Shown: positions 15,191 through 18,898 of the stretch, one piece after another
How the letters are laid out: the number at the start of each line of letters is the position of its first letter
Numbering within the stretch: the stretch's first letter is position 1
Source of the DNA: a virus
Length of the DNA: 22,079 nucleotides
Strand: one strand, 5' to 3'
IMG/VR virus record: IMGVR_UViG_3300033146_001093
Span: 1 to 22,079 of that record
Made by a program: the position numbers and the translations under genes
The notes under the pieces: model-generated
What the model was told of the DNA's origin: nothing
Seen by the model: the letters and a program-made list of their open reading frames with translations, nothing else
Database searches by the model: none

Positions 15191-15648
15191 AATTCTAAAA
15201 TATTAAATTTATTAAATGCTACTATGATAGATATCCATAAAGCTAATCTATACAAAACCCACTTAAGTGATAATCTTTTGAAAGCAAATTTATACACTAA
15301 ACCATATTTTAATGTAGGTAGATTATTTTCGTCATAGAATTCACTAACTTCTGGAACTAAATAATCAGCAAAACCTAAATCTTCGTCTAAGTACCTATTT
15401 ATAGGTGCCATTAACTCCAATACTTTCATTTTCTTTATCTCCTCAGGTAATACTTTTTCTTCATCTTTAAGAGAGATGACAGTATAAATAACATAAAAAA
15501 TATTATTGCTAAAATCGAATTTGTTATATTTAGATAACGGATTTGATTTTTCTTCTTTTATAACACTAATCCATTTGCTGTAATTTGATAAATCTCTTAT
15601 TATATTAAAAGAAAAGTACGATTTTAGCTTAGCTATAAATTTCATCAT
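15175..15648 (-). CDS. Small protein with C-terminal membrane segment, overlapping the sigma factor gene (157 aa)
   Basis: Unrecognised. The first ~125 residues look cytoplasmic and mostly helical ('NYSKWISVIKEEKSNPLS', 'LELMAPINRYLDEDLGFADY', 'PEVSEFYDENNLPTLKYGLV'). Residues about 131-148 (WVLYRLALWISIIVAF) are a likely single membrane segment preceded by Lys/Arg, followed by a short tail. The gene overlaps the end of the sigma factor gene by 20 nt (15629-15648), so the two are almost certainly translated from one transcript. Genes coupled directly to ECF sigma factors in bacteria are often membrane-anchored anti-sigma factors, which makes that role worth testing, but the sequence shows no recognisable anti-sigma domain. 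A phage structural or assembly role is equally possible. Confidence 0.72.
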   Translation of the reverse strand: MMKFIAKLKSYFSFNIIRDLSNYSKWISVIKEEKSNPLSKYNKFDFSNNIFYVIYTVISLKDEEKVLPEEIKKMKVLELMAPINRYLDEDLGFADYLVPEVSEFYDENNLPTLKYGLVYKFAFKRLSLKWVLYRLALWISIIVAFNKFNILELIKGL

Positions 15649-16249
15649 AATATGATTCTATTAATTTCTTGTTAGTTTTTTTAATTTTCTTCGCCACATC
15701 TAATTTAGCCTTTCTTAATCTAGTTTTTACTGTAGAAATATTCCAATCTAGATCTTTTGCTATATCTTGCAGTTTTTTATTATTTAATTCTCTTTCAATC
15801 ATAACAGTTTTATATGGTTCATCTAGAGAATTTATAACTTTTACAGTTTCTTTATAAAGAGATACAAATACATCTTCTTTATTATCTATTAATTCTATAT
15901 TGATATTATCAATAGGAGAATATAATTTCAAAAGTTTACTATGATTTTCTGTTAACATCTCATGAGAAATAGTTTTATTGCTTTCTTTGATAAAATGTAA
16001 ACATTCATTTTTAGCTATAGCATAAACCCATGTTGAAAAATTAAACTTTGTGTTATATTGTTCTATCTTTTCCCATACAGTTATGAAAGTTTTAGATACA
16101 ACATCGTTCGCATTATCTCTATCTTCTAAAAATCTATATACAAAAGAATTTAGACCTGGTTTAAGTCTATCTAATAAAATACTAAATGTTTTCTCATTTT
16201 TATTCTCAACAAAATCCATTGCGATTCGTTGTATTGTCTTTTTTGCCAT
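15629..16249 (-). CDS. ECF-like sigma-70 family RNA polymerase sigma factor (206 aa)
   Basis: Region 2 spans about residues 21-88: 'FLEDRDNANDVVSKTFITVW', followed by 'FNFSTWVYAIAKNECLHFI', the ECF pattern of core-binding and -10 recognition helices. After a linker of about 45 residues, region 4 spans about 132-190 with a helix-turn-helix at about 157-182 ('NKKLQDIAKDLDWNISTVKT', 'RLRKAKLDVAKKI'). Region 3 is absent and the length is right for an ECF sigma factor. In T4 the late genes are read by the small sigma factor gp55; here this protein is the obvious candidate for redirecting host RNA polymerase to phage late promoters. That role is inference. A terminator lies directly upstream and the gene overlaps the next one by 20 nt. 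Confidence 0.92.
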   Translation of the reverse strand: MAKKTIQRIAMDFVENKNEKTFSILLDRLKPGLNSFVYRFLEDRDNANDVVSKTFITVWEKIEQYNTKFNFSTWVYAIAKNECLHFIKESNKTISHEMLTENHSKLLKLYSPIDNINIELIDNKEDVFVSLYKETVKVINSLDEPYKTVMIERELNNKKLQDIAKDLDWNISTVKTRLRKAKLDVAKKIKKTNKKLIESYYDEIYS

Positions 16250-18615: not shown

Positions 18616-18649
18616 AAAAATCTGGACAGATTTTAAATCTGCCCAGATT
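18616..18649 (-). terminator. Strong intrinsic terminator of the tmRNA gene
   Basis: On the minus strand AATCTGGGCAGATT (18649-18636) pairs with AATCTGTCCAGATT (18632-18619) over 14 bp with one G-U pair and a 3-nt loop, followed by a T-run (TTTTT, 18620-18616). It lies about 20 nt after the tag stop region and shows that the coding piece is the 3' end of the transcript. Confidence 0.93.
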
Positions 18650-18670
18650 ACATTTCGTTAAGTCAACGTC

Positions 18671-18703
18671 TTACGCTGCCATTAACATTTCTTGGTTGTT
18701 TGC
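18671..18703 (-). other. tmRNA proteolysis-tag reading frame, peptide ANNQEMLMAA
   Basis: After AATAAAC the resume codon GCA starts GCA AAC AAC CAA GAA ATG TTA ATG GCA GCG TAA. Together with the alanine carried by the tmRNA this gives a tag ending in Met-Ala-Ala. The AN(N/D) start and hydrophobic-Ala-Ala end are typical of ssrA tags recognised by ClpXP-type proteases. Confidence 0.93.
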
Positions 18704-18770
18704 GTTTATTAAAACACCTATTAAATCATTCGATAAAGCCTCAGATTACTTGTCAAATCCGGTCATCCCC

Positions 18771-18785
18771 ATATATTTAAAGTTG
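18771..18785 (-). other. Intervening segment of the permuted tmRNA precursor
   Basis: An A/T-rich spacer of about 15 nt joins the 3' end of the acceptor piece to the 5' end of the coding piece. In known two-piece tmRNAs such a segment is removed to expose the 3' acceptor end and the 5' G. RNase P would be expected to cut before GGGG at 18770. Confidence 0.75.
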
Positions 18786-18898
18786 TGGAGATGCAGGGAA
18801 TCGAACCCTGGTCCAATATAACATCCTCATTATTATAGTTACCTAACAGATAACAGATTTAATTATTCTTTATATCTTTATTTTTCTAATAGTTTTAT

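Follow-up and report, generated by a model that had tools for sequence, protein, structure and literature searches.

A gene for transfer-messenger RNA (tmRNA), which rescues stalled ribosomes, in permuted order, in which the acceptor piece precedes the coding piece, lies at positions 18863 to 18612 on the minus strand of the window (i.e., the whole 22,079-nucleotide stretch of viral DNA analyzed here, from IMG/VR record IMGVR_UViG_3300033146_001093). This gene and its counterparts in related phages are very probably permuted tmRNA genes of a distinct type. On its sequence, the window comes from a large phage of the T4 type with kinship to the Lak megaphages (Lakviridae, Grandevirales), and its permuted ssrA gene appears functional.

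Anatomy and classification of the gene

Read directly from the letters of the minus strand, to which all window coordinates refer, the gene runs 5' to 3' through a T-arm, the 3' acceptor strand, a 15-nt spacer, GGGGATG, a D-region, the tag frame, and a terminator. A sequence-only reading had described this reversed ssrA order, and we found every element that it named at the place given for it. The 5' boundary extends beyond the range proposed then (18616 to 18855), with an extra strand of a long-range helix at 18863 to 18857. This strand, ATTAAAT, forms 7 of 7 pairs in the window with ATTTAAT (18726 to 18720), and the resulting outer helix, recognized by RNAalifold and pair counts in 30 relatives, joins the acceptor and coding pieces. 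A further helix, H2, is formed by GTTATATT (3' strand, 18822 to 18815, with one bulged A) and AAGTAAT (5' strand, 18751 to 18745, located by alignment); the window was out of register in the alignments for H2 and the terminator, and both were read by eye there.

The T-arm, CAGGG-TTCGATT-CCCTG (18810 to 18794), and the 3' acceptor strand, CATCTCC (18793 to 18787), were placed by the RF04321 alignment and are supported by covariation. On its 3' side, the acceptor piece is predicted to end with the discriminator A at 18786. CCA is absent from the gene in the window, where ACAA is found instead, and it is unencoded in most clade members and therefore must be added. The intervening spacer, CAACTTTAAATATAT (15 nt, 18785 to 18771), is predicted to be cut out, and GGGGATG (18770 to 18764) would begin the coding piece at an RNase P site, so that the predicted ends, 18786 and 18770, match those proposed earlier. 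The two acceptor strands pair over all 7 bp, as had been claimed, and include a G3-U70 pair. Downstream lie the D-region GGATTTGAC (18760 to 18752; direct reading and RF04321 alignment) and the tag frame (18703 to 18671), which ARAGORN reads from the resume codon GCA to the stop codon TAA as ANNQEMLMAA and which aligns with GGC-starting tags of relatives. A stop-codon hairpin, CAGCGT-AAG-ACGTTG (18678 to 18664), is 94% paired, exceeding all strand shuffles, and the gene closes with an intrinsic terminator (hairpin plus U-run, 18649 to 18612), the hairpin of which is kept in relatives.

The tmRNA gene follows a T4-type portal gene of the gp20 family (20713 to 18899; PF07230, E 4e-49; phrog_213), with a gap of about 100 nt between the portal and acceptor in the window. 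When the 1.2 kb that follow the tag were scanned, no T-arm with a partner for GGGGATG turned up, and the sole one lies upstream. An ECF-like sigma factor gene with Sigma70_r2 and r4_2 domains is present at 15629 to 16249 on the same strand.

The general, merged permuted model RF04321 (tmRNA_permuted) matches 18843 to 18671 with 81.1 bits (E 2e-14; cut-off, 47), and ARAGORN calls the window gene a permuted tmRNA, although it overlooks the permuted genes of many relatives. The one-piece model RF00023 reaches 32.4 bits against a cut-off of 47, without a full-length match, and mispairs CATCTCC with a local GAGGATG. Thus, the earlier warning that standard models may miss such a gene applies to RF00023 and, among relatives, to ARAGORN, but both RF04321 and ARAGORN find the gene in the window.

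The subtype models for alpha, beta, and cyano tmRNAs were run on the window and ten further contigs, all of which scored under the cut-offs. RF01849 (alpha_tmRNA; cut-off, 50) gave 38.3 bits for the window, RF01850 (beta_tmRNA; cut-off, 84) gave 39.8 bits for the window and no more than 52.2 for relatives, and RF01851 (cyano_tmRNA; cut-off, 70) gave 38.5 and no more than 48.8 bits, respectively. The controls passed in each case: a Rhodocyclaceae gene with the beta model (235.6 bits), that of pelagiphage Mosig with the alpha model (67.6 bits), and that of cyanophage S-CAM1 with the cyano model (128.2 bits). Since the three models miss their cut-offs while their controls pass, the proposal of a separate permuted lineage is upheld. 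The highest alpha score among the relatives tested was that of L130, nearly at the cut-off (49.8 of 50 bits), and given this score the clade may be remotely connected with the alpha type.

Relatives and covariation

We fetched relatives from IMG/VR with the portal as the probe, obtaining first 17 close contigs and later a wider set that comprised 80. RF04321 located the permuted gene in 14 contigs of the close set and 18 of the wider set, i.e., in 32 relatives (33 phages with the window), the T4-type portals of which are 57 to 72% identical to that of the window. Five of these genes fall under the gathering score (37 to 47 bits), their anatomy being unchanged. The position of the gene was measured in 30 relatives; in every one, it lies on the strand of the portal, 55 to 3,644 nt downstream of it. 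No tmRNA was found in three clade members (L065, L070, and L083) with RF04321, the motif, or a clade-built model. A blastn search of the window tmRNA against phage records returned T-arm fragments only, one of which pointed to the crAss-like phage cr50_1. The tags of the relatives begin with GE or GN, as exemplified by GENVYNEYRIAA, GEQFNEYRIAA, and GETVNEMRMAA.

Several genes have T-loops unlike TTCRANN with their stems kept, namely, the permuted L041, L044, L126, L130, and L132 and the one-piece L144; such aberrant loops (GGCGGAA, GGCAGAA, AGGCATA, GTCGGAT, and GGCGGTT) occur in both gene forms. The spacer ranges from 15 to 186 nt among relatives. Structured inserts in it are shared within four groups (L037/L041/L130, L135/L141, L125/L133, and L035/L038/L129). 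The spacers of L135 and L141 are 94% identical and their coding pieces 82%, and the tmRNA of L134 is nearly the same as that of L135, yet it has a 20-nt spacer without an insert. An Rfam search of the inserts found no known ribozyme or element; the inserts seem to have been gained and lost over time.

The acceptor strands are 7 of 7 paired in all 34 permuted sequences, but pairing had helped to pick the strands in those 34, and the pairs were hence recounted on a MAFFT alignment (A2; 31 sequences with the spacer removed, the segments still being chosen by script). Over the 20 pairs of A2, 93.2% of cells are standard pairs, and 17 pairs have changed on both sides. The covariation score was 0.545, compared with 0.156 ± 0.015 for shuffles, none of 500 being as high, and it was at most 0.110 when slid. 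In the split acceptor stem, 99% of cells are paired, with compensatory change in four of the seven pairs and the other three invariant; this is the kind of change that the sequence-only reading had proposed looking for among related phages. G3-U70, the alanine identity pair, is present in 31 of 31 sequences. Compensatory change was also observed in every pair of the T-stem (5/5) and H2 (8/8). For the outer helix in 30 relatives, it was observed in six of six pairs, with 87% pairing, above all strand shuffles, and in a longer alignment the outer helix, the stop-codon hairpin, and the terminator each exceeded all strand shuffles. A local minihelix with GAGGATG (18828 to 18822) as the acceptor partner was also considered and was dropped, as it is unconserved in relatives. 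The covariance model, the covariation in 31 sequences, and the lack of a downstream T-arm all support the earlier identification of a permuted two-piece tmRNA gene.

Origin of the permutation

RF00023 detected one-piece tmRNA genes in Lak-A1, LR756500, and LR756504, as well as in six further contigs (those of L095, L097, L105, L106, L119, and L121), and RF04321 found no match in these phages and contigs. Thus, unlike the clade, Lak megaphages and their kin (MK250016, LR756500, and the L095, L097, L105, L106, and L119 contigs) have a standard-order one-piece tmRNA, which is above the RF00023 cut-off in most (that of L119, with 46.2 bits, is slightly under it). The Lak-type one-piece gene also adjoins the portal, but one-piece genes of the sister phages are found on its upstream side or within arrays of tRNA genes, whereas the permuted gene lies downstream. 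The tags of the one-piece kin (e.g., GEYNEYRMAA and GNNAEMRMAA) have the endings EYRMAA and EMRMAA in common with tags of permuted relatives, and the one-piece L145 shares TTGATTGCA and GTAAGACCAGGGTTCGACTCCCTG with L134 and other permuted genes.

The window portal is 41% identical to that of Lak-A1. One branch of the portal tree, with support of 87/74, has every permuted phage on the same side, and this tree has one change of form. The head-gene tree, based on the portal and two more genes, likewise has one change of form, with support of 95/89 for the permuted clade and 100/99 for the one-piece Lak-type group as its sister clade. Because of the phage tree and the shared tag and sequence features, we favor a permutation within the lineage, and we give roughly an even chance to the permuted gene having arisen inside the phage group from a one-piece gene of the kind kept by the sister phages. 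The fuller account, in which the permutation was independent and took place in a virus rather than a cell, the spacer served as an insert site, and the gene later spread to other Bacteroidota phages, may equally well be right or wrong. Counted against it is the different position of the sister one-piece genes relative to the portal; besides, no remnant of a tandem-duplication route conserved across relatives was seen. The one-piece genes of the closest phage kin set a narrow phylogenetic bracket around the change of form, which permits a hunt for intermediates and a before-and-after comparison and makes this virus family suited to studying how rearranged RNA genes arise. L046 (LR756504.1:280507-280863) is a standard tmRNA that is divergent and has an unusual T-arm, and a second GGGGGTG-like acceptor start approximately 60 nt past its end might represent duplication or an intermediate form.

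Alternatively, a host or phage that already had a permuted ssrA (of the alpha, beta, or cyanobacterial type or of an unsampled one) could have passed it on by horizontal transfer, and the incoming gene, working alike, would have displaced an ancestral one-piece gene; we consider this a serious possibility, somewhat short of an even chance. The tmRNA-only tree (147 columns), which has no supported grouping of permuted genes with one-piece phage genes, leaves room for acquisition by its lack of resolution, and forcing the phage permuted and Lak-type one-piece genes together costs 5.2 log units (p 0.38). In the same tree, a constraint that unites all permuted genes, those of the known types among them, is worse by 31.7 log units (p-AU 0.052), which speaks against acquisition. 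The alpha score of L130 and the detection of the S-CAM1 gene by the clade-built model (56 bits) point toward a foreign source, whereas the failure of all three subtype models to reach their cut-offs and the resemblance of the tags and TLD motifs to those of the one-piece genes of sister phages point away from it.

Similar permuted genes in unrelated phages likewise favor acquisition. RF04321 detected permuted genes outside the clade in contigs G001 to G003 (L002, L003, and L004), and the G002 portal has 52% identity with its counterpart in Flavobacterium phage immuto, on which RF04321 gave no match. These contigs form a second T4-type group, with sizes from about 170 kb upward, that is akin to immuto, with the tags GESVEMAMAA, GEQVEMAMAA, and GNFLQKAA and with the gene near a conserved membrane-protein gene. 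The crAss-like phage cr50_1 (MT774375.1:39374-39869, L171) has a permuted tmRNA with the tag GNNFVTDYTAIGA, annotated merely as transfer-messenger RNA. Like the clade genes, it is called permuted by ARAGORN and RF04321 (60 bits) and has a GN-type tag, its phage belonging to the gut Bacteroidota order Crassvirales; unlike them, it comes from an unrelated phage, its spacer exceeds 200 nt, and its tag ends in GA. A permuted tmRNA with the tag GNNFTNNTQKVMYAAA was also found at 864 to 1059 (L158) of CAMEUD010000120.1, a 3.7-kb contig of a gut Clostridia metagenome-assembled genome (MAG). The same MAG has a separate standard tmRNA, and the contig is probably a misbinned phage piece. A motif scan of the genomes of 84,980 species, covering canonical T-arms combined with short spacers, gave two hits, namely, this contig and one true beta gene; within that scope, the motif thus occurs in the own ssrA of bacterial genomes only as the beta gene, which weakens the case for a bacterial donor. 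The occurrence of similar permuted genes in unrelated phages therefore implies transfer between phages or an origin elsewhere.

It is very improbable that the gene is decayed or that only its upstream T-arm piece is active, as a decoy that resembles a tRNA and is closed by the local GAGGATG (18828 to 18822). RF00023 does use this local pairing, if only at its subthreshold 32.4 bits, and a TLD-only phage element has been reported in mycobacteriophage DS6A (PMC4131195, PMC11915505), which provides a precedent. However, the local GAGGATG is unconserved, whereas covariation with the 3' strand is seen for the GGGGATG that follows the spacer; both halves are connected by H2 and by the outer helix, and the tag frame and stop hairpin are kept in relatives. 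An ordinary one-piece tmRNA with its true 3' part downstream and a stray tRNA remnant upstream, for which the one-piece genes of sister phages might speak, is refuted by the downstream scan and by the upstream arm being kept and covarying in 31 sequences, and the closing terminator and the lack of a full-length RF00023 match agree with its rejection.

Host, predicted processing, and comparison with known two-piece tmRNAs

The window phage probably has a Bacteroidota host, because its portal relatives include Lak phages (Prevotella), Tenacibaculum phages, and Chryseobacterium phages, a structural protein contains a BACON domain, and the GE and GN tag starts of its relatives are in Bacteroidota style. 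The earlier label of a Bacteroidota-type phage accords with these three features, the host itself being likely rather than established. It has been reported that huge phages carry tmRNA and SmpB (PMC7162821). Lak-A1 encodes its own SmpB (MK250016.1:507053-507484, L204; E 5e-55), and no SmpB was found in the permuted-clade contigs, which are incomplete and reach up to 405 kb. Host SmpB is the likely partner of the clade tmRNA.

Because known two-piece tmRNAs work in this way, we infer two-piece processing, charging, and tagging in the window phage. One transcript would be made from the gene at 18863 to 18612; RNase P would cut before GGGG (18770), and 3' tRNA-processing enzymes would trim past A18786, after which CCA would be added. 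Pairing in the acceptor stem, in H2, and in the outer helix would hold the acceptor and coding pieces together. The RNA would be charged by AlaRS via G3-U70, host SmpB would aid entry into stalled ribosomes, and truncated proteins would receive a tag ending in MAA.

Descriptions of permuted tmRNAs exist for mitochondria and for three main clades of bacteria. Permuted tmRNA in phages as such is already known, and the novelty implied by the sequence-only reading was too strong: genes of this form have been published in OM43 phage Melnitz, pelagiphage Mosig, and cyanophages (PMC9004378), and the cr50_1 record holds another. In a partial literature search, we found no description of a permuted type in Bacteroidota phages, whether Lak-related or not, and the permuted lineage of Lak-related phages is apparently undescribed so far. 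Type-tuned models and plain "tmRNA" annotation overlook the permuted form in Bacteroidota phages.

The genes of Melnitz, Mosig, and the cyanophages resemble those of the clade in being permuted ssrA genes carried by T4-type phages. However, the marine phage genes are of the type found in the lineages of their hosts, alpha or cyano (Mosig passes RF01849 and S-CAM1 passes RF01851), whereas the clade members tested pass neither model. With the alpha, beta, and cyano two-piece tmRNAs in general, the clade shares the gene order, split acceptor stem, T-arm, H2, tag frame, and short spacer. In contrast to these types, the tags of the clade relatives start with Gly (GE or GN) and end with MAA, and the spacer often has structured inserts. 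Furthermore, compared with RF04321, the clade has an outer helix and an acceptor-piece stem-loop beyond the model boundaries.
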